This document shows, one piece after another, positions 8,449 to 32,944 of a stretch of 32,944 nucleotides of DNA. Both the position numbers and the translations under genes were made by a program. Origin of the DNA: Gilvimarinus chinensis DSM 19667 (lineage in GTDB: Bacteria; Pseudomonadota; Gammaproteobacteria; Pseudomonadales; Cellvibrionaceae); assembly GCF_000377745.1 (NCBI RefSeq), contig NZ_KB898716.1, positions 1 to 32,944 of the forward strand, written 5' to 3'. Within the stretch, counting starts at the first letter, position 1; each line of letters opens with the position of its first letter. Under the pieces are notes generated by a model, which ran no database searches, was not told the origin of the DNA, and saw only the letters and a list, made by a program, of their open reading frames with translations.

Positions 8449-9414
8449 ATGAGCTTAAAGATCGGTGTAGTGATGGACCCCATCGCTGACATAACTTACT
8501 ATAAAGATACGACCTTGGCGCTGCTTTTAGCCGCCAGCGAGCGCGGCCATGAGCTCTTTTATATGGAGCCAAAGGATTTATACCTCAGCCGAGAGCAGGC
8601 GCGCGCGTTCACCTGTCCGCTAAAGGTGTTTGACGACGCAACCCGTTGGTACGAACTCGACTCACCCTGCGATATGGCACTTGGCGAGCTAGACGCCATA
8701 TTGATGCGCAAAGACCCGCCATTCGACACAGACTATATATACAGCACTTATATTCTTGAAGCTGCGCAACGGCAGGGGGCGATGATCATAAATGACCCCG
8801 CCAGCCTGCGTGACTGCAATGAAAAGATCTTCGCCACCCAGTTTCCTCAGTGCTGCCCCCCCATGATCGTAAGCGCGCGAATGGACCAACTTAAGAGCTT
8901 CCATAAAGACCATCAGGATGTCATCTTTAAACCCTTAGACGGCATGGGCGGCAGCGGCATATTCCGTTGCCGCAGTGACGATCCAAACATAGGCTCCATT
9001 CTAGAAACCCTGACCAATCATGGTCGACACCTGATTATGGCGCAAAAATTCATCCCAGAAATCAGCAACGGAGATAAACGGATTTTGGTTGTGGGGGGTG
9101 AAGCAATCCCCTATGCCCTGGCGCGAATTCCCGCCGCAGGTGAAACACGAGGAAACTTGGCCGCCGGTGGCCGCGGCCAGCCACAACCACTGACTGAACG
9201 CGACCACTGGATTGTCAGCCAGGTATCACAGCAACTTGTAGAACGTGGGTTGTTGTTTGTAGGGCTCGATGTGATTGGCGATTACTTGACTGAAATCAAC
9301 GTCACCAGCCCCACCTGTGTGCGCGAAATCGATCGCGCTTACGACACCAGAATCGGTGAAAAACTGATGCTCGCCATTGAGCACACCCTGGCTTTGCAGG
9401 CTACCCAGGCATGA
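8449..9414 (+). CDS. gshB: Glutathione synthetase
   Basis: ATP-grasp enzyme that joins gamma-glutamylcysteine and glycine to make glutathione in the cytoplasm. The protein is 321 residues, the usual length for the bacterial enzyme. Family blocks are in order: GVVMDPIADI near the N-terminus, AILMRKDPPFD at 83-93, SLRDCNEKIFATQFP at 119-133, the flexible ATP-binding loop KPLDGMGGSGIF at 161-172, RIPAAGETRGNLAAGGRG at 226-243, and EINVTSPTCVREID at 282-295. The ATG at 8449 agrees with Pseudomonas GshB, which also begins a few residues before VMDPI. The stop overlaps the next gene by four bases (ATGA), implying translational coupling. The leader carries hairpins. Confidence 0.97.
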   Translation: MSLKIGVVMDPIADITYYKDTTLALLLAASERGHELFYMEPKDLYLSREQARAFTCPLKVFDDATRWYELDSPCDMALGELDAILMRKDPPFDTDYIYSTYILEAAQRQGAMIINDPASLRDCNEKIFATQFPQCCPPMIVSARMDQLKSFHKDHQDVIFKPLDGMGGSGIFRCRSDDPNIGSILETLTNHGRHLIMAQKFIPEISNGDKRILVVGGEAIPYALARIPAAGETRGNLAAGGRGQPQPLTERDHWIVSQVSQQLVERGLLFVGLDVIGDYLTEINVTSPTCVREIDRAYDTRIGEKLMLAIEHTLALQATQA

Positions 9415-10334
9415 ACGCTGGCTCTACCGCAGGCAATTCCGTCGCCGTAGGCGTCGATACCAGCATCAACCCTCTCGATCGATTAAGCTTTACGGTGTTC
9501 GTCGCAATCGTCGCTCACGCCCTGCTGATTTTCGGCCTGACCTTTAGCCTTCCTAAGGCCGGAGATCTGAGCCCGACGCTAGAAGTAACCCTGGCTAATT
9601 ATCAATCTTCTAAAGCCGTAGACAACGCCCGCTTTCTCGCTCAACATAACCAAGAAGCCAGCGGCACAGAACTCGCCGATCAAGAATTAACCACCAACCA
9701 ACCCGCGGACTTCGCTGCACCGCACATCAAACCCGTCAACCCCGTGCCGCAGGTTCAAGCTGCTTCCCAGCAGCAGGCCAGCCAAACTCAACTTATTACC
9801 AGCACCGAAACAGCGTCCCGGCAAGTTCAACAGCATGCTGACACAGAAAATCAACATCAAGAAGATGAGCGTGAAGGTGTGCCGGACGAACAACCTTTGG
9901 TATCCCCAGAAATCGCAAGCCTACAGGCTAAGCTGGATCGACAGCGCCAAGAATACGCAAAGCGCCCACGCTTACGCCGCCTGACCTCTGTGGCCACCAA
10001 AACGGCTCCCGAGGCTGAGTACCTTCTGAGCTGGAGCCGAACAATAGAACAAGTGGGTAATGATAATTACCCACAGCAGGCACTCACACAACGCCTCACG
10101 GGCAAGTTGCGCATGGCCGTCACTATTAACCCCAATGGCACCATCCGCGAACTCGAGCTGTCGGAGTCATCCGGCATAAGCGTTCTGGACGAAGCTGCCT
10201 TACAAATTGTCCGTCTCGCAGCCCCTTTTGACCCCATCCCACCAGAGGTGCGCGAAAACTATGATCAGCTGCAAATTATCCGCACCTGGTCATTTGAAAT
10301 AGATGGGCTCAGCACCGCATCGGCCAGCCCCTGA
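9411..10334 (+). CDS. TonB-family energy transducer (TonB3-like)
   Basis: Inner-membrane protein of 307 residues that would span the periplasm and transmit force from an ExbB/ExbD-type motor. There is an unusually long cytoplasmic N-terminus of about 24 residues, one membrane helix at about 26-47, and a polar Gln/Glu-rich periplasmic linker (about 60-190) lacking the Pro-Lys repeats of classical TonB. A C-terminal TonB domain runs from about 215 to 295 (LTGKLRMAVTINPNGTIRELELSESSG, DEAALQIVRLAAPFDPIP). The position after gshB and before yqgE matches P. aeruginosa tonB3 (PA0406), reported to be needed for twitching motility. No exbB or exbD is adjacent. The start overlaps the gshB stop. Confidence 0.85.
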   Translation: MNAGSTAGNSVAVGVDTSINPLDRLSFTVFVAIVAHALLIFGLTFSLPKAGDLSPTLEVTLANYQSSKAVDNARFLAQHNQEASGTELADQELTTNQPADFAAPHIKPVNPVPQVQAASQQQASQTQLITSTETASRQVQQHADTENQHQEDEREGVPDEQPLVSPEIASLQAKLDRQRQEYAKRPRLRRLTSVATKTAPEAEYLLSWSRTIEQVGNDNYPQQALTQRLTGKLRMAVTINPNGTIRELELSESSGISVLDEAALQIVRLAAPFDPIPPEVRENYDQLQIIRTWSFEIDGLSTASASP

Positions 10335-23699: not shown

Positions 23700-24203
23700 A
23701 TGATTCGAATTCTTTTACTGCTGGCGCTTTGCTTGGGGGCGGCGCCAGTTTTCGCGCAGGCCAGTGCGGACGATGCCGAGGCGCTGAAGCAGAGCGCGCT
23801 TAACCTCAATCGCGATTTGCTGATTCTGGAAGAAGAACTGCTCTACCCGCCCAACAGCCAGGTGGCGGTGTATCTCAGCATGGATGTAGCCGAGTACTTC
23901 GCCCTGGATGCGGTGAAACTGAAAATCGACGACACCTTTGTCGCCGCCGAGCTCTACAGTGAAAAGCAGGTCGACGCCCTGATTCGCGGCGGCATTCAAA
24001 AGCTGTATATCGGTAACGTCAAAAGCGGCAGTCACGAAATAAGCGCCTTTTTTACCGGAATTGGCCCGCAGGGTCAGCCCTACAAGCGCGCCGCCGCCAT
24101 CACCATTGATAAATCCACAGCGCCCGTGGTGCTGGAGTTAAAAATTGTCGACTCCACCGCCAAGCTGCAACCGGTGTTTGAAATCAAGCAATGGGAGCTG
24201 TAA
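23700..24203 (+). CDS. Small exported protein, first gene of the TPR-ExbBD operon
   Basis: Protein of 167 residues, not assigned to a named family here. It has a hydrophobic signal peptide (about 1-19, ending PVFA), then an acidic helical segment (SADDAEALKQSALNLNRD, LLILEEELLYPP). The rest looks like beta strands, with alternating polar and hydrophobic stretches (QVAVYLSMDVAEYFALDAVKL, KLYIGNVKSGSHEISAFFTG, APVVLELKIVD). This could be an immunoglobulin-like or other beta-sandwich fold. AGGA lies before the ATG. The next gene starts inside its last five codons, so the two are coupled. A periplasmic accessory role in the downstream machine is inferred from position only. Confidence 0.75.
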   Translation: MIRILLLLALCLGAAPVFAQASADDAEALKQSALNLNRDLLILEEELLYPPNSQVAVYLSMDVAEYFALDAVKLKIDDTFVAAELYSEKQVDALIRGGIQKLYIGNVKSGSHEISAFFTGIGPQGQPYKRAAAITIDKSTAPVVLELKIVDSTAKLQPVFEIKQWEL

Positions 24204-26125
24204 GCCACAGCCTTTGCCTGGCGTTAGTGGTGTGCCTGAGCGGCGTTGCGAGCGCGGCGCAAAAGCCCGGTGACAAACACAGCGCGGCGCATAACCTGGA
24301 TTATGGCGAGGGCCTGTACCACTACTACCAGGGCGACTACGCCGAGGCGCTCTCGACCCTTGAGCTTGCCCGCCAGCAGGGCGGCATCAGCGGCCATGGG
24401 CACTACCCAGAATTAATGCGCGCCGGTATGTACCTGGCCTACGGCATGACCGCCAAAGCCCGCGCCGAATTCGCCGCCCACCTGGGCCAGGGCGAAGCCC
24501 CCGAGGTACGCGATACCGCGCATTTTTATCTCGCCCGGCTCAGCTATCAGGCGGGCGACTACCCCGCAGCGGCGAATCATTTACAGGCGTTAGAAGGTGC
24601 TTTGCCGGCGTCACTGCAAGACGAAGCGGCGCTGCTCGCAGTGCATTTGCGTATTCAAACCCAGGGCGCGCCCAGTTTAAACAGCGCCCAGAGCTTGCTT
24701 GAGCCTCTCACCGATAACACTTATCTCGCGCTGTTGAATTTAGGCAATAGTGCCTCCCGCGCAGGCGATCCGATTCGCGCGCAAAGCTATTACAAAGCCA
24801 TGCTTGAGGCCGAGCCACCCGAGGATAAAAACCGGGTAGAAGAGTACCTGGCGGTGCGCGACAAAACCTACACCGCCCTCGGCTACAGCTACTTGGGCCA
24901 GCGCGATTACGCCTCGGCCAAGGCCGCGTTTCGCGAGGTAAGGCTGGATAACGCCCTGGCCAATCGCGCCCTGCTCGGCTACGGCTGGGCCGCCGCCAGC
25001 TACCACGACTATGTGCTGGCGCTAAAGCCCTGGCAGGCGCTGCGCCAGCGCTCACTGTTGGACCCGGCGGTGCAGGAATCCTTACTGGCGGTGCCCTGGG
25101 CCTACGAGCAAATTGATGCCACCGGCGCCGCCCTGGGTGCCTACCGCGAGTCGGAGCAGCTGCTTAACACCGAACTTGCGAATCTCGATACCGCCATCGG
25201 CGCCATGAGCCGTGAGGCGTTGCTGGCGCAATTAACCGGCGATGCGCCGCACCCCAGCCTTAACAGCGCCCCAGGCACGCTAAAACAAAACTGGCTTACG
25301 CTGGATAGCGTAAGCGTGATGAGCAGCGATTTAACCTATCTGGATGGGCTGTTAATCAGCGATGAGTTTCAGGCTCAGGTGCAAAGCCTGCGTGACTTAC
25401 TCGCGCTGGCGGATAAGTTCGACCATTGGCGCCACAAGCTCGCTATTTACGGTCAATTGCTGGAGGAAAAACGCAGCCGCCGCGCCGCCCGCGCCCAGCA
25501 AGTAGCCGACAGTGGCCTGCTGCTACAGCCCGCCGAACTGATGCAAGAGCGCGATCAACTGGCCAATACCCTGGCCCAAGTGCGCCAAGAGCGTGATGTT
25601 CTGGCGCTGGCCGAGGGCGACATCGCGGCCTTGTATCAACGGTTACAAAACGCCGAAGCGGCCCTGCAAAGGCTGGCGGGCAGTGGCCGCGCCCCGGCGG
25701 ATGCCGCCGCCAAGCTCAAGCTCTATCGCGGTATTTTAACTTGGCAAGCCGAGCAGAACTTCGCCCACAACACCTGGCAAATTCAAAAGCGTTTGCATCA
25801 GATTGATACCACACTGGAACAATCGCAAACCCGTGCAGCAAGTATTCAAAAGTTGCTGGCAGAAGACCCGGATATCGATGCCGATCTCGCCCGCTTGGCG
25901 CAAATCAGCCAGCAAAACAGCCAGCAGCTGGCCGAGTTGCGCAGCGCCATCAACGCCCGCGCCGAGGCCTTAGCGAATACGCTAACCGAGCATTTACAGG
26001 GCCATCGCGCCCGCCTTAACGACTATCTGGCGCAAACGCGCCTCAGCATCGCGCGCCTGCTGGATGATGCCTATCGCGCCGATACCCCCACAGACGGTCC
26101 GCAGCTGCCCGAGGTGGCGCAATGA
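24191..26125 (+). CDS. Exported TPR and coiled-coil protein
   Basis: Protein of 644 residues with a signal peptide (about 1-22). Residues about 35-330 form tetratricopeptide-type helical repeats such as YGEGLYHYYQGDYAEALSTL, HFYLARLSYQAGDYPAAANH, LLNLGNSASRAGDPIRAQSY and ALGYSYLGQRDYASAKAAF. A second half (about 380-635) is rich in long amphipathic helices with Gln, Leu, Ala and Glu, predicted coiled coil. The start at 24191 overlaps the upstream gene by 13 bases and has no clear ribosome-binding site, fitting coupled translation. The stop overlaps the next start by four bases (ATGA). Likely a periplasmic scaffold. Function is unknown. Confidence 0.85.
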   Translation: MGAVSHSLCLALVVCLSGVASAAQKPGDKHSAAHNLDYGEGLYHYYQGDYAEALSTLELARQQGGISGHGHYPELMRAGMYLAYGMTAKARAEFAAHLGQGEAPEVRDTAHFYLARLSYQAGDYPAAANHLQALEGALPASLQDEAALLAVHLRIQTQGAPSLNSAQSLLEPLTDNTYLALLNLGNSASRAGDPIRAQSYYKAMLEAEPPEDKNRVEEYLAVRDKTYTALGYSYLGQRDYASAKAAFREVRLDNALANRALLGYGWAAASYHDYVLALKPWQALRQRSLLDPAVQESLLAVPWAYEQIDATGAALGAYRESEQLLNTELANLDTAIGAMSREALLAQLTGDAPHPSLNSAPGTLKQNWLTLDSVSVMSSDLTYLDGLLISDEFQAQVQSLRDLLALADKFDHWRHKLAIYGQLLEEKRSRRAARAQQVADSGLLLQPAELMQERDQLANTLAQVRQERDVLALAEGDIAALYQRLQNAEAALQRLAGSGRAPADAAAKLKLYRGILTWQAEQNFAHNTWQIQKRLHQIDTTLEQSQTRAASIQKLLAEDPDIDADLARLAQISQQNSQQLAELRSAINARAEALANTLTEHLQGHRARLNDYLAQTRLSIARLLDDAYRADTPTDGPQLPEVAQ

Positions 26126-29103
26126 ATTGGCATCGCACGCCGTCTTCGTTCACCTTGCCGTTGGCGTTATCGCTGGTGTTGTCGGCCTGTGGCCATAACC
26201 CGGTAGAGGACAGCCGCACCCTGGCAGACCTGCCCGAGCCTGTCATCCCCAGGCACGACGAAGGTGTGGCCGCCGAAAATCTGGAGCAGATAGAAGCCCA
26301 ATACCGCGCCGCCCTGCTGGTGGCCACCGACCCCGAAGTGCGCCACCACATTCAAGTGCGCCTGGCGGATTTAGAAATGGCCCGCAGCGAACAGGCTCAG
26401 CAAGAGGCCCGTACCCTTACCGCCTTTTTCGCCGAGCCCATCAGTCACTATCAGGCGCTGGTAGCCACCTACGAGGCAGACCCGGCGCAATCGGTGGCGA
26501 GCGCGCCAGATGCCCTCTACTACAAGCTCGCCAAGGCCTACGCACTGGACGGTCGCGACCGCGAAGCCGCCGCCACCCTGGACGAGCTGGCGCAGCGCTT
26601 TCCCGATTCCCCTTATATTCACGAGGCGCAGTTCCGCCGCGCTGAGCGCGCCTTTGCCGCGGGCGATTACGAACTGGCCGAGGCCCTCTACCTTGAAGTT
26701 GCCACCAGCCCCACCAGCGCCTTTGCCGATAATGCCCTGTACATGCAGGGCTGGGCCGCGTACAAGCAATCGCGCTACGGCGATGCGCTGGGGCAGTTTA
26801 CCCAGCTGCTGGACGACGCCTTCGCCGGCGCGGTGCTGCCCTCGCAGGTGGCCACGGCGATGTCGCGCATGGACCCCAACCAGCGCAATCTGGTAGACGA
26901 CACCCTGCGGGTGCTCAGCTTTACTTACGCCAACCTCGACGGCGCCCAGTCTATTGCCGAACAGCAGCAAGACATCGGCGCCCGGCCCTATCAATACTTG
27001 CTGTACCAGCAGCTGGGTGAGCTGTACCTGAGCCAAGAGCGCTACCTGGACAGCGCCGATACCTACGCCCGCTTTGTCAGTAACAACCCCAGCGCAGACA
27101 TCGCGCCCGACTTTTCCATTCGCGAAATTGAGGTGTATCAGGCGGGCGGCTTTCCCTCGCTGGTGTTGCCCGCCAAGCGCGCTTACGTAAATCACTATGG
27201 TATTTACAGCAACTACTGGCAGGCCCGCGCCGGTATTGCCACCCCCGCCACCGGTCTGGCGGCGCGTCAGGTGGTGCGCAGCAACCGGCCGCGCAATATG
27301 AGTGCGCAGGCCTTGGCTAAGCTCAAGCTGTATCTGGAAGAGCTGGCGCGCCACAACCACGCCGAAGCGCAGCGTCTGGCCAAAGCGCAAAACGACGCCA
27401 ATGCCCTGGCCCCGTCCCGCGCCGATGTGCGCCGCGCCTACGCCGATGCTGCAGAGCTGTACGAAGAGTTTCTGCTCACCTTCCCGCTGGATGAACGCGC
27501 CGGCGAGATCAACTTCCTGATGGCCGAGGCCTATAACGAAAGCGGCCGCACCATCGCCGCGCTGGGCGCTTACGAAACCGTCGCGTTTGAGCGCATAGAC
27601 GCCACCTATGGCGCGGATGCCGGCTACAGCGCGGTACTGCTGAGCCAAAACCTGATTGAGCGCTCGAAGGCGGGCGAAAACCTGCCCACCGATTCCCTTA
27701 CTGATGAGCCGGTGCAGAGCAAGCTGTGGCAGTGGCAAGAGCGCAAAATCGACAACGCCATTAAATTTGCCGACACCTACCCACAGGATGAGCGCGCCAT
27801 TGTGGTATTAACCCAGGCCGCCCCCGAGCTGATGTACCAGGGTGAGCTGGCGCGCGCCTCGCAGGTGGCGCGACGGGTGATTACCTGGCAGCCCGCCCCA
27901 GAGGGCGACTTGCTCTACACCGCCTGGCTGACTCTGGGGCATTCAGAGTTTGAACAGCAGCTTTACCCCGAGGCCGAGGCCGCCTACTGGCAGGCGCTTG
28001 AGCTACACGCCAACTACGGCCAAAAGCCCGGCTCGCCCACCGCCGCCGAGCTGCGCGAGCGCATTGCCGCCAGCATCTACCAGCAGGCGCAGCTAGCGCT
28101 GGCCAGTGGTGATAACGCCACCGCTATCAATCAGTTGCTGCGCATTCACACCGAGCTGCCGGGTACAAGCATTGCCGCCACCGCCTTGTTCGATGCCGGG
28201 CACACCGCGCAAATGGCCGGTGACTATGCCCAGGCCCAGAGTCTGTTAAGCGAGTTTAAAACCGCCTACCCCAACCATGAACTGAGCGCGCGCCTGCCCG
28301 CCAAACTGATTGTGATTCACGAGGCGCAGGGCAACTGGGCCGCTGCCGCCGCGCTGCTGAGCGCTCAGGCCAGTGCCAATGCTGGCACCGAGTTGGGCCG
28401 CCAGTCGCTGTTAAGCGCCGCCGAGTACTACGATAAAGAAGGCGACTGGGAGCAGGCCCGCGACCACTACCGTGATTACGCCCACAGCTACGCCGAACCC
28501 GTCAGCGAGCGGCTGGAGGTAGAGCTGCGCCTGTCCGAGCTGTACAACGAGGTGGGCGATAGCGAAAGCCGGGATTTTTGGCTGGCGCGCATTGTTAAAA
28601 CCGCGCAGCAAAACCCCACCGAGCGCAGTCGCTATTTGGGCGCGCAGGCGGCGACCACCCTGGCCGAAGCGCCCTACCACCGGTTTAAAAACATCGCCCT
28701 TACCCTGCCCATCCAGCAGAGCCTGGGGCAAAAGCGCAGCGCGCTGGATGCGGCCCTGGCCGCGCAACAGCAGGTGCTGGACTTTAAAGTGGCGGACTTT
28801 ACCACCCGCGCCAATTTCTTTATCGGCGAAATTTACACCTCGCTGGCGCGCGATTTAATGGACTCCGAACGGCCTGCCAACCTCAACGCGCTGGAGCTGG
28901 AGCAATACGATATTCTGCTGGAAGAACAGGCCTACCCCTTTGAAGAAAAAGCCATCGACTTACACGAAGCCAACGCCCAGCGCAGCTGGCAGGGGCTTTA
29001 CGATGACTGGGTCGCGGCCAGTATTCAGTCGCTGGCAAAACTACTGCCCGCGCGCTACGGCAAACAGGAACAAACCGTGGAGGTGGCCCGTGAGATTCGC
29101 TAA
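26122..29103 (+). CDS. Large TPR-repeat lipoprotein
   Basis: Protein of 993 residues with a lipoprotein signal (LVLSAC, Cys23), so anchored to a membrane facing the periplasm. Residue 24 is Gly rather than Asp, so outer-membrane sorting is expected. Most of the length is TPR-like helical hairpins, for example YYKLAKAYALDGRDREAAAT, FRRAERAFAAGDYELAEALY, YMQGWAAYKQSRYGDALGQF, YQLGELYLSQERYLDSADTY-like units, and further sets around 450-500, 630-720 and 760-810. Broad resemblance is to gliding-associated TPR proteins such as AglT and to TPR partners of TonB systems. The start has GAGGTGG seven bases upstream. It ends inside the next gene by 14 bases. GC content is high (for instance 44 of 60 bases at 27241-27300). 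Confidence 0.85.
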   Translation: MNWHRTPSSFTLPLALSLVLSACGHNPVEDSRTLADLPEPVIPRHDEGVAAENLEQIEAQYRAALLVATDPEVRHHIQVRLADLEMARSEQAQQEARTLTAFFAEPISHYQALVATYEADPAQSVASAPDALYYKLAKAYALDGRDREAAATLDELAQRFPDSPYIHEAQFRRAERAFAAGDYELAEALYLEVATSPTSAFADNALYMQGWAAYKQSRYGDALGQFTQLLDDAFAGAVLPSQVATAMSRMDPNQRNLVDDTLRVLSFTYANLDGAQSIAEQQQDIGARPYQYLLYQQLGELYLSQERYLDSADTYARFVSNNPSADIAPDFSIREIEVYQAGGFPSLVLPAKRAYVNHYGIYSNYWQARAGIATPATGLAARQVVRSNRPRNMSAQALAKLKLYLEELARHNHAEAQRLAKAQNDANALAPSRADVRRAYADAAELYEEFLLTFPLDERAGEINFLMAEAYNESGRTIAALGAYETVAFERIDATYGADAGYSAVLLSQNLIERSKAGENLPTDSLTDEPVQSKLWQWQERKIDNAIKFADTYPQDERAIVVLTQAAPELMYQGELARASQVARRVITWQPAPEGDLLYTAWLTLGHSEFEQQLYPEAEAAYWQALELHANYGQKPGSPTAAELRERIAASIYQQAQLALASGDNATAINQLLRIHTELPGTSIAATALFDAGHTAQMAGDYAQAQSLLSEFKTAYPNHELSARLPAKLIVIHEAQGNWAAAAALLSAQASANAGTELGRQSLLSAAEYYDKEGDWEQARDHYRDYAHSYAEPVSERLEVELRLSELYNEVGDSESRDFWLARIVKTAQQNPTERSRYLGAQAATTLAEAPYHRFKNIALTLPIQQSLGQKRSALDAALAAQQQVLDFKVADFTTRANFFIGEIYTSLARDLMDSERPANLNALELEQYDILLEEQAYPFEEKAIDLHEANAQRSWQGLYDDWVAASIQSLAKLLPARYGKQEQTVEVAREIR

Positions 29104-29791
29104 GCCACTGCTGGCGTTATCGGGTGTGTTGCTGCTGAGCGCCTGCGCCAGCTCCCCCGAACAGCCTACTGATGCCGCTACAGCCGAGGCGGAAATGGCC
29201 CAGGCGGAAGCCAGCGAGCAGGCCTTTAACGCCGCGCTACCGCCGGGCCCTGTTACCATTAATCCTTACCTGCAAGGCCCTGCGCCCAAAGTGAGCGCTG
29301 ACATACAAAACAGTTTTGCCACCGCACAGCAGCAAATGACGCAACAGCGCTGGAGTGATGCGCGCCACACCCTGCAAGCGCTGGTGGTGCAGGCGCCCGA
29401 GTTATCCGGCCCCTGGCTTAATCTCGGTATTGTCTGGGTGCAGCTCAACGAGCCTGGTCAGGCCCGCGCCGCCTTTGACCGCGCCCTGGCCGCCAACCCG
29501 CTGAATGTGGATGCCTACAACCATCTGGCGGCGCTGGAGCGGCGCGAAGGCAATTTTGCCCAGGCGCAAGAGCTGTACGAGCAGGCGCTGGCGGTGTGGC
29601 CACACTCAATTGCCAGCCATAAAAACCTGGGTATCTTGCAGGACATTTACACCGGCGACTGGCCCCAGGCGCTGCTGCACTATCAGGCCGCCCAGTACCT
29701 GACCGAGCAAACCCAGGGCGCACCGGATACACAACTGGCGGGTTGGATTATCGACTTACAGCGGCGTATGACCGCACAGGGGGCGCAGTGA
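29090..29791 (+). CDS. TPR-repeat lipoprotein, 233 residues
   Basis: The chosen start is GTG 29090, which has a perfect GGAGG six bases upstream and gives a proper lipoprotein signal (MRFAKPLLALSGVLLLSAC, Cys19). The longer in-frame ATG 28940 would place 50 basic, repeat-antisense residues before the signal and is unlikely. After a polar Ala/Glu linker, residues about 75-215 carry about three TPR units (QNSFATAQQQMTQQRWSDAR, WLNLGIVWVQLNEPGQARAA, YNHLAALERREGNFAQAQEL). It overlaps both neighbours (14 and 4 bases). It is probably an outer-membrane-anchored scaffold with PilF-like general layout but no pilus neighbour. Confidence 0.85.
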   Translation: MRFAKPLLALSGVLLLSACASSPEQPTDAATAEAEMAQAEASEQAFNAALPPGPVTINPYLQGPAPKVSADIQNSFATAQQQMTQQRWSDARHTLQALVVQAPELSGPWLNLGIVWVQLNEPGQARAAFDRALAANPLNVDAYNHLAALERREGNFAQAQELYEQALAVWPHSIASHKNLGILQDIYTGDWPQALLHYQAAQYLTEQTQGAPDTQLAGWIIDLQRRMTAQGAQ

Positions 29792-30129
29792 AGCCGTTAG
29801 TTTTAAACGCAGCAGCTTTTATCGCCGCGCTGTTATTGCCACTGGCGGCGCAAGCGCAGGATGAACGCCTGGAAAGCACAATCACCGGTAATCAGGAGCA
29901 GCCCCAGGTGCTGTACATTGTGCCCTGGCAAACGCCCGACAGCCCCACGCTTAAATACGATGTGGTACGCGACCAGTCCGCCGCCGTGTTTGAGCATTTA
30001 GAGCGCTCAGAGCTTCACCGCGAGTTAAACCTGCTGGATCAGATTGAGCCAGCATCGCAAGCGAGCAATAAAAATGAGACACAGCTAACAGAAACATCGC
30101 AGGCATCACAAACCGATACGAACAACTGA
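29788..30129 (+). CDS. Small exported protein, 113 residues
   Basis: The start is GTG 29788, overlapping the upstream TGA (GTGA) with a G-rich element before it. The longer ATG at 29743 would put 15 non-signal residues in front. A signal peptide (1-23, ending AAQAQ) is followed by a mature part of about 90 residues containing QVLYIVPWQTPDSPTLKYDVV, an FEHLERSELHRELNLLDQI helix and a Ser/Thr/Gln/Asn-rich tail that looks disordered. No family is recognised. A short beta segment plus helix suggests an adaptor that binds a partner in the machine encoded around it. Confidence 0.75.
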   Translation: MKPLVLNAAAFIAALLLPLAAQAQDERLESTITGNQEQPQVLYIVPWQTPDSPTLKYDVVRDQSAAVFEHLERSELHRELNLLDQIEPASQASNKNETQLTETSQASQTDTNN

Positions 30130-30194: not shown

Positions 30195-30875
30195 ATGGAT
30201 TTTTTCTCCACGATCGTGCGCTTTTTCCAAAACGGTGGGCCTTTTATGTACCCCATCGCGCTGGTGCTGATTATCGGCCTGGTGATTGCGGTAGAACGCT
30301 ATCTGGTGCTCAGCGCCGCGCGCCGCGCCAACAGCCAGGCGTTTAACCGGGTCATGCCGCTGCTGAAAAAACGCGACTATCAGGGCGTGGTGCAACTGGG
30401 CCGTTCAGACGATGCCCCCATCGCTCGCATCGTTGCCGCCGGGGTGGCGCGTATGGGCCAGTCGGGCAATCGCGACGATATCGAACTGGCCATGGAAGAG
30501 GGCGTATTAGAAGCCATGCCGCGGCTTGAAAAGCGCACGCCTTACTTAGCCACTTTGGCGAATATCGCCACCCTTTTAGGGCTTTTGGGTACCATTATCG
30601 GCCTGATTGCCGCCTTTACCGCCGTGGCTGAGGCCGATCCCGCCGAAAAAGCCACCTTGCTCTCAAACAGTATTTCGGTGGCCATGAACACCACCGCCTT
30701 TGGTCTTATTTCCGCCATTCCGCTGCTGCTGTTTCACGCCATGCTGCAAACCAAAACCACCGAGCTTGTGGACTCGCTGGAAATGACCGGCGTGAAGTGC
30801 CTTAACCTTCTGACCGGCAGCGCCCAGCCCAAAGCGGCCGCCGCCAGTCAGCCCGCTCCCAGAGCCGGGGTGTAA
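30195..30875 (+). CDS. MotA/TolQ/ExbB-type proton channel subunit
   Basis: Inner-membrane protein of 226 residues with three predicted helices: TM1 about 18-37, TM2 about 120-142 and TM3 about 163-184. The TolQ/ExbB signature region is visible as LATLANIATLLGLLGTIIGLIAAF followed by SISVAMNTTAFGLISAIPLLL. The Thr166-Thr167 pair sits at the place of the channel-lining Thr of ExbB and TolQ. It would form a pentamer around ExbD-type subunits and use the proton gradient. AAGG lies before the ATG. It is 65 bases after the previous gene and 9 before the next. The Ala/Pro-rich C-terminal tail is unremarkable. Confidence 0.92.
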   Translation: MDFFSTIVRFFQNGGPFMYPIALVLIIGLVIAVERYLVLSAARRANSQAFNRVMPLLKKRDYQGVVQLGRSDDAPIARIVAAGVARMGQSGNRDDIELAMEEGVLEAMPRLEKRTPYLATLANIATLLGLLGTIIGLIAAFTAVAEADPAEKATLLSNSISVAMNTTAFGLISAIPLLLFHAMLQTKTTELVDSLEMTGVKCLNLLTGSAQPKAAAASQPAPRAGV

Positions 30876-30884
30876 GGCTGGCCC

Positions 30885-31457
30885 ATGCGCTTTAGAAGAC
30901 GGCGCCACAACGAGGAAGCCGAGCTCAACATCACCTCCTTTATGAATCTGATGATCGTATTGGTGCCGGTGCTGTTGCTGAGCATGGTGTTCTCGCGCAT
31001 TACCGTGCTGGAACTCAACCTGCCGGATTCCGCCTCGGCCAGCAGCGCCGAAGACTCCGAGGATATGGACTTTCTGGAAGTGGTTCTCTACCCGGATTAC
31101 CTGGGCATTAACCACCCGGCGGGCAACCGCGCGTTTTCCGTCTGCCCGCACACCGAGGGCGACATGGCAGGTACTCACAACTACGCCGAGCTGACCGAGG
31201 CGCTCAAGCAAATCAAAATCCGCTTGGAAGACGACTACCAGATCGAGAAAAACGACATTGTCCTCCTGGCCCAGCCAGACACAGATTACCAAACCATTGT
31301 CAGCACCATGGACGCGGTGCGCTCGTTTAAAGCCGTGGTGGCCGCCAACGTGGTGGATGCCTCGCTGTTCCCGCAAATCTCGCTGGGCGATGCCCCCGAC
31401 AATGACCCGCTGCGCGATCAGGTGCCCTGCGACACGGTGAGCGGAGGTGCGCCATGA
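30885..31457 (+). CDS. ExbD/TolR-type subunit lacking the proton-carrying Asp
   Basis: Protein of 190 residues with a basic N-terminus (RFRRRR), one membrane helix (about 20-38) and a periplasmic domain (about 60-190). Alignment by eye of the helix start, LNITSFMNLMIVLV, with the E. coli ExbD segment INVTPFIDVMLVLL puts Asn21 at the position of Asp25, the residue essential for ExbD function. The periplasmic part is unusual in holding a Cys pair (Cys87 and Cys182) that could form a disulfide. It has a linker with acidic Ser-rich residues and a terminal ExbD-like strand region (NDIVLLAQPDTDYQTIVSTMDAVR). AAGG precedes the ATG. Its last four bases overlap the second exbD-like gene. Confidence 0.9.
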   Translation: MRFRRRRHNEEAELNITSFMNLMIVLVPVLLLSMVFSRITVLELNLPDSASASSAEDSEDMDFLEVVLYPDYLGINHPAGNRAFSVCPHTEGDMAGTHNYAELTEALKQIKIRLEDDYQIEKNDIVLLAQPDTDYQTIVSTMDAVRSFKAVVAANVVDASLFPQISLGDAPDNDPLRDQVPCDTVSGGAP

Positions 31458-31975
31458 AACAATCACTGCGCGCCAAGCGCATGGCCAAGCACCATCGCCG
31501 CAACCAAGCGGTACCCAAGCTGAACCTGGTATCGCTGATGGATATTTTCACCATCCTGGTGTTCTTTTTGTTGGTCAACTCGTCCGACGTTGAGGTACTG
31601 ACCAACGACAAATCCATCAAGCTGCCAGCCTCCATCGCCGACACAGTGCCCGAAACCACCCTGGTGGTGATGGTAAACGACGAGAACATTCTGGTGGGGG
31701 GCCGTCCGGTTACCGACATTGCCAGCATTGGTGAAGACCCGGAAATCGAGCCCCTGCTAACCGAGCTGGAATACCGCGCCTCGCGCCGCAACATCACCCC
31801 CGAGCAACAAGCCAAGGGCTTGCCCATTACCATCATGGGCGACAAAGCCATCCCTTATACCTTGCTCAAACAGGTTATGAATACCTGCGCCCAGGCGGGC
31901 TACCGAGATATCGCACTGGCAGTGAACAAAACCGCCGACAAACGCGGCGAAGCGCTTGAGGGGGCTAAGCAGTAA
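31454..31975 (+). CDS. ExbD/TolR-type subunit with the conserved Asp
   Basis: Protein of 173 residues with a long basic N-terminus (about 22 residues rich in Lys, Arg and His). The membrane helix begins VPKLNLVSLMDIFTILVFFLL, keeping the proton-carrying Asp (Asp30). The periplasmic domain (about 60-173) ends with the typical ExbD arrangement of a strand and helix (ITIMGDKAIPYTLLKQVMNTCAQAGYRDIALAVNK). GGAGG lies six bases before the ATG. The stop overlaps the next start by one base. It pairs with the Asn-type paralogue directly upstream, so the predicted motor may contain two non-identical ExbD-like chains. Confidence 0.93.
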   Translation: MKQSLRAKRMAKHHRRNQAVPKLNLVSLMDIFTILVFFLLVNSSDVEVLTNDKSIKLPASIADTVPETTLVVMVNDENILVGGRPVTDIASIGEDPEIEPLLTELEYRASRRNITPEQQAKGLPITIMGDKAIPYTLLKQVMNTCAQAGYRDIALAVNKTADKRGEALEGAKQ

Positions 31976-32944
31976 TGGCCCGCCGGCAGACACCAGAATG
32001 GCAATCGCCTTTTGCCCGCAGCGCGGCGGACGACTCGCGCTTTGGCAAAATCCTGATCGGGGCCGTGGCCGTATTTGCCATCGCCGGGGTGGTGGTGCCG
32101 CTCATTCAACTGCCGGAAATTGAACGCGCCGAAAAAGAAGAGCTGCCGCCGCAACTGGCGCGGGTACTGTTAGAAAAACAGGAAATCGAGCCGCCCCCAC
32201 CGCCGCCTGAGCCCGAGCCTGAGCCAGAACCGGAAGAAGAACCAGAACCCGAAGAGCCGCCGGAGCCAGAAGAGGTGCCCGAACCGGAGCCGGAACCCGA
32301 AGTGGTGCCCGAGCCAGAGCCAATCACCGAAGTGGATAAAGCGCGGGAAAAAGCCAAAACCACCGGCGTGCTGCAATTTCAAGACGCCCTGGCGGATATG
32401 CGCGAGGCCATAGATACCAAAGCCGTTGCCAGCGAAAACATCACCCGTGGCCAGGCCGAAGCCGAACGCACCCAGCGCGATTTAATTACCAGCAACGCCG
32501 AAGCCGACAGCGGCGGTATCAACACCGCCGCGCTTTCCACCGACACCGGCGGCGTCGCCCTGTCGGGCCGCGAAACCACCCAGGTAGAAAGCCCGCTGGG
32601 CGGTGAAGATGCCGTAGCCTCCGCCGCGCCCGCCAAAAGCCGCACTGCATCCGAGCGCACCGACGAAGAAATTCGCCAAGTCATGAGCCAGCACGCCAGC
32701 GCGCTGGATCGCTACTACCGCCGCGCCCTGCGCAGCAACCCAGCACTGCAGGGCAAGGTGGTGTTAAAGCTGGTAATCAATCCCGACGGGACACTGGCAG
32801 ACGTGAGTATCGTTAGCTCTGGTCTGAACGATCCGGATTTGGAAGCCAAGGTGTTGGCGCGGGTTAAGTTGATTACCTTCCCGGCGCGTAGTGATGTGAT
32901 TGTTACTACACGGAATTATACTTTGAATTTTTTGCCGCAACTGT
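31975..32944 (+). CDS. AgmX/TonB-like energy transducer (3' end cut by window edge)
   Basis: Inner-membrane transducer of at least 323 residues, whose frame is still open at the right edge. The usual family end is near, so probably only a few residues are missing. One membrane helix lies at about 25-44, followed by a Pro/Glu repeat region (73-116) that is acidic throughout. A polar Ala/Thr/Ser linker leads to a C-terminal AgmX/PglI-type domain (about 230-323) containing VMSQHASALDRYYRRALRS, LQGKVVLKLVINPDGTLADV and VKLITFPA. The domain resembles TonB but has the Q/R-rich helix before it that is typical of the AgmX group. Coupled to exbD by TAATG. It would link the ExbBD motor to the periplasmic TPR lipoproteins. 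Confidence 0.9.
   Translation, partial: MARRQTPEWQSPFARSAADDSRFGKILIGAVAVFAIAGVVVPLIQLPEIERAEKEELPPQLARVLLEKQEIEPPPPPPEPEPEPEPEEEPEPEEPPEPEEVPEPEPEPEVVPEPEPITEVDKAREKAKTTGVLQFQDALADMREAIDTKAVASENITRGQAEAERTQRDLITSNAEADSGGINTAALSTDTGGVALSGRETTQVESPLGGEDAVASAAPAKSRTASERTDEEIRQVMSQHASALDRYYRRALRSNPALQGKVVLKLVINPDGTLADVSIVSSGLNDPDLEAKVLARVKLITFPARSDVIVTTRNYTLNFLPQL
32191..32322 (+). repeat. Imperfect Pro-Glu coding repeat in the TonB-like gene
   Basis: Residues 73-116 of the transducer are almost entirely Pro and Glu, in PE, PEP and PEE units with a few Val. Codons vary (CCG, CCC, CCA, GAG, GAA), unlike the pure (Ala-Glu)n tract of chpA, so this is an older repeat under selection. In classical TonB such segments are stiff rods across the periplasm. 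The Lys-Pro half found in E. coli TonB is missing. Confidence 0.85.

Follow-up and report, generated by a model that had tools for sequence, protein, structure and literature searches.

An Agl-like ExbB-ExbD-ExbD operon with a conserved neutral residue in place of the essential aspartate of its first ExbD chain

The AglRQS motor belongs to the Agl-Glt gliding and sporulation machine of Myxococcus xanthus. This motor, to which the operon described here is similar, consists of one ExbB/TolQ-type protein (AglR) and two ExbD/TolR-type proteins (AglQ and AglS), and is accompanied by GltG-like and TPR proteins. AglQ is a protein of 162 amino acids with an aspartate at position 28 (PMC3169522, PMC3858216). 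A conserved aspartate is predicted in both AglQ and AglS (review, PMC9389320), and the D28N substitution in AglQ abolished proton conductance and paralysed the M. xanthus motor (PMC3858216). The same review leaves open whether the two assemble as homodimers or as heterodimers (PMC9389320). The gliding machinery of M. xanthus needs Group A genes. A Group B core complex of unknown function, comprising GltD, E, G and C with AglR, Q and S, was described in Gammaproteobacteria by Luciano et al. (2011, PMC3169522); its genes are clustered in one region, it is related to the Myxococcus Agl-Glt machine and it is duplicated in Teredinibacter and Saccharophagus (PMC3169522).

The essential aspartate of ExbD is Asp25 in PMC12905483. 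In current models two aspartates alternate, each accounting for 36 degrees and one proton (PMC12215075), giving ten ions per turn (PMC9389320). A review regards ten-fold rotational symmetry as 'almost certain to be a universal feature'; in its view 'an entirely new model' would be required for a motor using five ions per turn (PMC9389320). Heterologous tolR-like pairs have also been reported in PVC bacteria, where they lie beside vWA transducers (PMC12204202).

The window, meaning the whole stretch of 32,944 nucleotides that was analysed, is contig 11 of a 4.07-Mb genome. An operon on the plus strand at its far end encodes one ExbB and two unlike ExbD proteins, ExbD1 and ExbD2, the first of which has asparagine at the position of the essential aspartate.

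The operon and its two ExbD chains

The gene order of the operon is small secreted-looking protein, TPR protein, TPR protein, TPR lipoprotein, small protein, ExbB, ExbD1, ExbD2 and GltG/AgmX-like protein (Table 1). All 41 twelve-kb loci from a scan of named genome contigs combine ExbB and two ExbDs with the GltG-like protein and with the large TPR protein (phmmer, E <= 1e-4). The TPR proteins are possible counterparts of GltC, GltD and GltE, a suggestion based on size and order only; the GltE model scored 26.1 bits against the third of them (cut-off 225), the start of which (about 29090) was estimated by eye. The GltG/AgmX-like protein passed the NCBIfam model NF033768 (65.9 bits, cut-off 40) and remained under the cut-off of 650 for NF033760, GltG (50.4 bits). 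The start of exbD2 overlaps the stop of exbD1 by four bases (ATGA), suggesting coupled translation of the two chains, and exbD2 overlaps the GltG-like gene by a single base.

Table 1. Positions of the operon genes and of the key codons within the window
Feature	Position	Strand	Remarks
Small secreted-looking protein, operon head	23700..24203	+	No family match; homologue in 15/41 loci
TPR protein, possible GltC counterpart	24191..26125	+	Homologue in 38/41 twelve-kb loci
Large TPR lipoprotein, possible GltD counterpart	26122..29103	+	Homologue in 41/41 loci
TPR lipoprotein, possible GltE counterpart	29090..29791	+	Homologue in 39/41 loci
Small secreted-looking protein	29743..30129	+	No family match; less conserved, homologue in 18/41 loci
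exbB (AglR-type pentamer subunit), 226 aa	30195..30875	+	Pfam MotA_ExbB, 102.6 bits
ExbB Val162	30678..30680	+	Aligned with Glu176 of chain 5sv0_B
ExbB Asn165-Thr166-Thr167	30687..30695	+	Thr167 aligns with Thr181
exbD1 (slot 1, AglQ-position), neutral chain, 190 aa	30885..31457	+	Pfam; phmmer; AlphaFold2
Asn21 of ExbD1, codon AAT	30945..30947	+	Aligned with essential Asp of ExbD
Pro28 of ExbD1, codon CCG	30966..30968	+	+7 from Asn21
exbD2 (slot 2, AglS-position), putative proton-carrying chain with Asp30, 173 aa	31454..31975	+	Pfam; AlphaFold2
Asp30 of ExbD2, codon GAT	31541..31543	+	
GltG/AgmX-like TonB-type force transducer, >=323 aa	31975..32943	+	NCBIfam; reaches window end

His and SHLS-like features are present in the TM segments of TonB and TolA (PMC12215075, PMC12204202) and absent from the GltG-like transducer of the window (31975-32943), in whose TM segment neither a His nor an SHLS-like motif was seen by eye; it may therefore dock differently on ExbB. 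Elsewhere in the window, a second TonB_C protein (9411-10334, 55.3 bits) is flanked by what appear by eye to be glutathione synthetase-like and AlgH/YqgE-like genes, and none of the ExbD matches of the genome lies beside it. On the minus strand (2-100) a large gene resembling by eye a chemotaxis-type kinase runs off the window start amid Ala-Glu repeats.

The Pfam cut-off for ExbD (PF02472, 25.4 bits) was passed by both ExbD1 (49.0 bits) and ExbD2 (59.4 bits), and the ExbB of the window was placed in the MotA/TolQ/ExbB proton channel family (PF01618, 102.6 bits). The NCBIfam equivalog cut-offs for ExbD, TolR, ExbB and TolQ were not reached, the best scores against their cut-offs being 22.3/127.3 for ExbD1, 29.4/216 for ExbD2 and 62.2/221 for ExbB. 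Identity as the phage-defence system Zorya was rejected, the only ZorA match to ExbB being a weak one of 15.3 bits. A plasmid search with ExbB returned two distant Vibrio matches.

A sequence-only reading of the window had claimed that ExbD1 has Asn21, encoded by AAT, at the site of the essential aspartate and that ExbD2 retains it as Asp30, and both claims held for genes, codons and alignment. ExbD1 was aligned by phmmer to the solved ExbD chains 6tyi and 7ajq, taken here to be those of E. coli and Serratia, without a gap at the key site and with Asn21 falling on the essential aspartate. The conserved protonatable TM aspartate is present in ExbD2 and missing in ExbD1. In the AlphaFold2 models both residues lie five residues from the start of a helix, which spans residues 16-40 in ExbD1 (mean pLDDT 83.7) and 25-42 in ExbD2 (mean pLDDT 84.1). 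A fold search with the ExbD1 model was weak; ranks 1-4 were ribosomal, the ExbD periplasmic domain 8pek was found at rank 5 (E 0.013, TM by target 0.54) and there was no match at E <= 0.001. Five other ExbD genes are present in the genome, and all five encode Asp at the key site.

Both conserved threonines are present in the window ExbB, where Thr133 and Thr167 align with Thr148 and Thr181 of chain 5sv0_B. This chain is taken to be E. coli ExbB, and the numbering of Glu176 was counted from the alignment to it. Position 166 of the window ExbB aligns with Ala180 of the same chain, four residues after Glu176. A pore-facing orientation of positions 162 and 166 is inferred from the alignment, without a structural result.

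Conservation of the neutral residue in slot 1

Of 58 genomes covered by a protein search, 39 contained ExbD1 relatives, and the window's own genome was among them. With the ExbB profile (E <= 1e-40) the motor type was found in 72 of the 321 genomes that were sampled from the class and in 12 of 349 from the phylum sample. A first survey yielded 142 distinct operons, 140 of them with downstream DNA and the other two stopping at contig ends. Slot 1 was Asn in 138 of the 140 (135 read by HMM, and L071, L112 and L118 by eye), Ser in one (L092) and Asp in one (L146).

Scanning of the named genome contigs found at least 387 relatives, and the best 80 were retained. These were mostly from Gammaproteobacteria (Microbulbifer, Marinobacter, Alcanivorax and many MAGs), the other taxa being Geomonas/Geobacter, Pelobacter, Desulfobulbaceae and MAGs labelled Nitrospirae, Anaerolineales and Myxococcales. 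In the phylum to which the Myxococcales MAG belongs, presumably Myxococcota, related motors were present in 158 of 188 genomes (E <= 1e-25), and in the phylum around Geomonas matches were found in 62 of 148 genomes (E <= 1e-30), many of them to more distant ExbB types; residues were read for only part of the matches from these two phyla. Some genomes of the Myxococcales-MAG phylum carry two complete exbB-exbD-exbD sets of unlike type side by side (L283, L286, L288, L290, L291, L294, L296, L297, L301, L302, L304 and L305).

For the pooled set, 363 ExbB entries were reduced to 312 by removal of 26 without a readable ExbD and 25 duplicates; 13 with one ExbD and one with three (L298: N, D, N) were then left out, giving 298 operons with an Agl-type ExbB (>=100 bits, ExbB profile) and two ExbDs. 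Two loci with two ExbB genes before one ExbD pair (L261 and L317) were each counted twice, so the 298 operons represent 296 distinct ExbD pairs, 44 of these Asp/Asp. The residues in slots 1 and 2 were Asn/Asp in 240 operons, Asp/Asp in 46, Ser/Asp in nine, Cys/Asp in two and Ala/Asp in one. Slot 1 was neutral in 252 operons, and slot 2 was Asp in all 298. Asn in slot 1 was seen in Gammaproteobacteria, in Thermodesulfobacteriota (L207) and in genomes of the Myxococcales-MAG phylum. The lopsided pairing of a neutral with an Asp chain is kept across distantly related bacteria. On a quick ExbB tree at least six exchanges between N, S, C and A were counted at the neutral site, so the trait that is kept is 'not acidic'.

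These counts bear on two rival explanations. A local mutation, sequencing error or pseudogene was conceivable, as one base change turns Asp to Asn, and can for practical purposes be ruled out by the recurrence of Asn in 138/140 and 240/298 operons from several phyla. Alternatively, the Asn chain may actively help to transfer ions, either by acting as a hydrogen-bonding relay or by forming part of a site that binds ions, perhaps Na+. Asn is indeed the commonest neutral residue (240/252), and ExbB offers extra polar groups at Asn165 and Thr166 beside Thr167. However, Ser, Cys or Ala occupies the site in 12 of the 252 chains, the repeated exchanges on the tree involve these residues, and Ala or Cys could hardly replace an Asn relay, so that this explanation is considered unlikely.

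An acidic residue moved elsewhere in the helix was also rejected, since Asp or Glu occurs between -4 and +15 of the key site in only four of the 252 neutral slot-1 proteins. Position -6 is Asp or Glu in 123 of the 252 neutral chains and in none of the 46 Asp slot-1 chains, possibly providing a charge at the cytoplasmic helix end in some lineages; it cannot be a general substitute because the window has Asn15 there. The idea of an asymmetric ExbD pair, put forward by the sequence-only reading, survives both the check for a one-off mutation, Asn being fixed in the first survey, and that for a shifted acid. That reading had also drawn attention to a periplasmic Cys pair on the Asn chain. The pair is real (C87 and C182) and kept in all seven operons of the window's genus after removal of duplicates, but it is not a feature of the family. 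Periplasmic Cys residues were absent from 209 of the 252 neutral slot-1 proteins and numbered one in four, two in 34, four in three and eight in two; their occurrence almost only in even numbers suggests lineage-specific disulphides. The Cys pair was rejected as part of the mechanism, to which this genus-level detail contributes nothing.

No lone neutral ExbD was found wherever the neighbouring DNA could be read. Among the 13 loci with one ExbD, two Agl-type Asn chains lacked a scored partner: L181 lies at a contig end, and the partner in L227 has the Asp but a stop interrupts its gene in this MAG. Another of the 13, L345, has Asp at the key site.

A separate profile was used to read 81 other ExbDs from the class; 78 had Asp, and each of the three with Asn adjoins an Asp chain. 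From one of these exceptions a second family was reached, with the order ExbB, ExbD(Asp) and ExbD(Asn/Ser). A TonB protein (Pfam) follows the ExbD pair in all three loci of this family that were checked (L380, L381 and L382), and L382 also has a TonB-dependent receptor (Pfam). In 30 loci read in following up this family (L424-L453, of which L424 and L437 repeat L380 and L381) all 20 tandem pairs were Asp with Asn (18) or Asp with Ser (two), and all ten single ExbDs were Asp. Pooled over controls and second family, single-ExbD loci had Asp in 77 of 77. The neutral gene is the first of the pair in the Agl-like family and the second in the TonB-linked family.

Covariation of ExbB and a slot-1 proline with slot-1 acidity

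The position of ExbB equivalent to Glu176 was Glu in 44 of the 46 Asp/Asp operons and in none of the 252 neutral/Asp operons, where it was Val (207), Ile (19), Leu (14), Met (eight), Thr (three) or Lys (one). Position 166, equivalent to Ala180, was Cys or Asn in 46/46 Asp/Asp operons and in 2/252 neutral/Asp operons, 240 of the latter having Thr. The Thr181 position was Thr in all 298. Within slot 1, Pro at +7 was found in 246 of the 252 neutral chains versus none of the 46 Asp chains, which argues that the neutral helix is a distinct type and not a decayed one. Such joint change of ExbB and slot 1 would be anticipated for an ExbD1 located within the ExbB pore.

Independent switches are few. 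The ExbB tree comprised 146 rows, among them L345 and other single-ExbD rows under 150 bits, and was built by a quick method with the four focal columns left out and with SH-aLRT support only, without bootstrap. On this tree slot-1 acidity switches five times, four of these on starred branches, and ExbB Glu three times. In the four independent pairs from starred branches, ExbB Glu was concordant in three and did not differ in one, position 166 was concordant in all four, and slot-1 Pro in 3.9 of four on average; none was discordant for any of the three. Sign tests on these pairs were not significant (median p 0.125-0.25), 0.05 being unreachable with so few. Monophyly of the 37 Asp/Asp rows that have ExbB Glu is rejected (AU p 2.7e-66, quick tree). 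Three Geobacteraceae Asp/Asp rows are nested within the neutral/Asp clade (SH-aLRT 97-98, no bootstrap); slot 1, the two ExbB positions and the Pro all set these motors apart from their tree neighbours. The single Asp/Asp lineages L146 and L215 have Val at ExbB 162, Asn or Cys at 166 and no Pro; ExbB Glu is therefore not strictly tied to Asp in slot 1.

The idea that a neutral ExbD is always accompanied by loss of the ExbB Glu was rejected, because 11 of the 21 neutral/Asp loci of the second family in which ExbB could be read retain the Glu. Among single-ExbD loci with a readable ExbB, Glu is found at that position in 45 of 71, the rest having Lys, Gln, Arg and others. By these two counts the change of the Glu is a feature of the Agl-like class and not a law.

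It could be argued that ExbD1 has no motor role, that only its periplasmic domain matters, binding peptidoglycan or GltG, and that its helix is an anchor outside the pore. ExbD1 is divergent as a whole (mean column identity 38% over 48 sequences), and the Cys pairs described above are lineage-specific. Against this, 19 columns of ExbD1 are invariant or almost so, and 10 of them, including N21 and P28, lie in the helix, whose key residue moreover covaries with ExbB; an anchor role is therefore highly improbable.

A further alternative is that a homodimer of ExbD2 (Asp) forms the working motor while a homodimer of ExbD1 (Asn) acts as a regulator that plugs or scaffolds inactive ExbB pentamers, both drawing on a shared ExbB pool. 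A single ExbB gene does serve two ExbD genes, and the dimeric state of AglQ and AglS is itself unresolved (PMC9389320). The evidence against it is that the ExbB positions covary with the slot-1 residue while slot 2 is constant, that no neutral chain was seen without an adjacent Asp chain where DNA was readable, and that the overlap of exbD1 and exbD2 suggests coupled synthesis. This alternative is judged unlikely; nevertheless, in the absence of protein data, a pair of homodimeric motors that share one ExbB remains possible.

A proposed single-carrier motor and its relation to known systems

The reading preferred here is an Agl-like motor of composition ExbB5:ExbD1:ExbD2 with one proton carrier. 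The observations are the key residues and their fixation, the Asp partner encoded alongside, the operon as such and the ExbB covariation; the heterodimer, the 5:1:1 ratio, the number of protons, the step size and the force output are inferred, and the reading as a whole is likely. That ExbD1 is unable to carry protons is probable and is inferred from sequence alone. The inner-membrane motor would consist of five ExbB (AglR-type) subunits, one ExbD1 and one ExbD2, with Asp30 of ExbD2 carrying protons. ExbD1 would take the second axle position, where the neutral Asn21 would be permanently 'protonated'-like and would transfer no proton; it would give the asymmetric pore its shape and would probably contribute to the positioning of the axle. 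Approximately five protons would be used per turn in 72-degree units (or in uneven pairs of 36-degree steps), versus ten in 36-degree steps, and one carrier would give half the maximum torque at equal proton-motive force, by a relation from PMC9389320. The GltG/TonB-like protein, together with the TPR lipoproteins, would pass the force on to the outer membrane. Because 5:1 ExbBD complexes have been reported (PMC12215075), one ExbD chain might lie outside the pore.

A natural asymmetric ExbD heterodimer in an ExbB pentamer with one proton carrier had been proposed by the sequence-only reading. This is supported, with the shared pentamer and the stoichiometry remaining inferred, and it is further backed by the ExbB covariation, by the Asp partners wherever DNA was readable and by the second family of Asp with Asn or Ser. 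It had also stated that an Asp-to-Asn change abolishes proton coupling, which agrees with the paralysis of AglQ D28N in M. xanthus (PMC3858216), yet the state of that dead mutant is the wild type here. ExbB 162 and 166 and Pro28 of ExbD1 are candidate compensating sites, so the coupling rule should be open to dissection through a small number of residue swaps.

A natural motor that is widespread and pairs a single Asp chain with a neutral one provides a direct test of the assumption of two alternating aspartates. The predicted asymmetric axle would explain why there are two different ExbD genes per operon. A bolder reading is that single-carrier 5:2 motors arose at least twice, through slot 1 in the Agl-like family and slot 2 in the TonB-linked family, and that the Agl-like class works without a Glu ring at five protons per turn; this could as readily prove wrong as right. 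If true, it would break the ten-fold alternating-Asp cycle taken as common to ExbBD, TolQR and MotAB-type motors, and would represent a natural gearing of force versus proton cost.

The motor family and the two-ExbD layout were already known. The fixed neutral chain, the ExbB covariation and the second family are apparently new, in that they were not found in the open-access literature searched; with the narrow search terms used, no described neutral ExbD chain was found there. The operon fits the Group B core complex, with aglR-Q-S-like, gltG-like and TPR genes in one cluster. Neither the missing Asp nor the ExbB covariation was found mentioned in the relevant sections of PMC3169522, where the word 'aspartate' is absent.

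AglRQS has Asp in both AglQ and AglS (PMC9389320), whereas slot 1 of the window is a natural Asn; the window differs further in having Val at the ExbB Glu position and in having its motor, TPR and GltG-like genes in one operon. The Asp/Asp clade is inferred to be that of AglRQS. In ten picked Asp/Asp loci the slot-1 Asp lies at residues 23-29, counted from the most upstream Met, and slot 1 of L264 (Asp28, 164 aa) is close to AglQ. Within the Myxococcales-MAG phylum, four neutral/Asp loci examined over 16 kb had GltG-like genes (4/4) and window-like TPR genes (3/4). Two Asp/Asp loci had none of either, resembling the separate aglRQS cluster of M. xanthus. A Geomonas Asp/Asp locus has TPR, ExbB, ExbD and GltG-like genes together.

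The tolR-like pairs of PVC bacteria resemble the operon in combining an unlike TolR-type pair with one tolQ-type gene and a TPR gene; there, however, the transducer is a vWA protein, and no neutral chain is described in the relevant passages of PMC12204202. With the 5:2 motors ExbB-ExbD and TolQ-TolR the window proteins share the Pfam families, the gene order, the equivalents of ExbB Thr148 and Thr181 and one predicted TM helix. They differ from these motors in that the window has two unlike ExbD chains, with the proton-binding Asp in only one of them.
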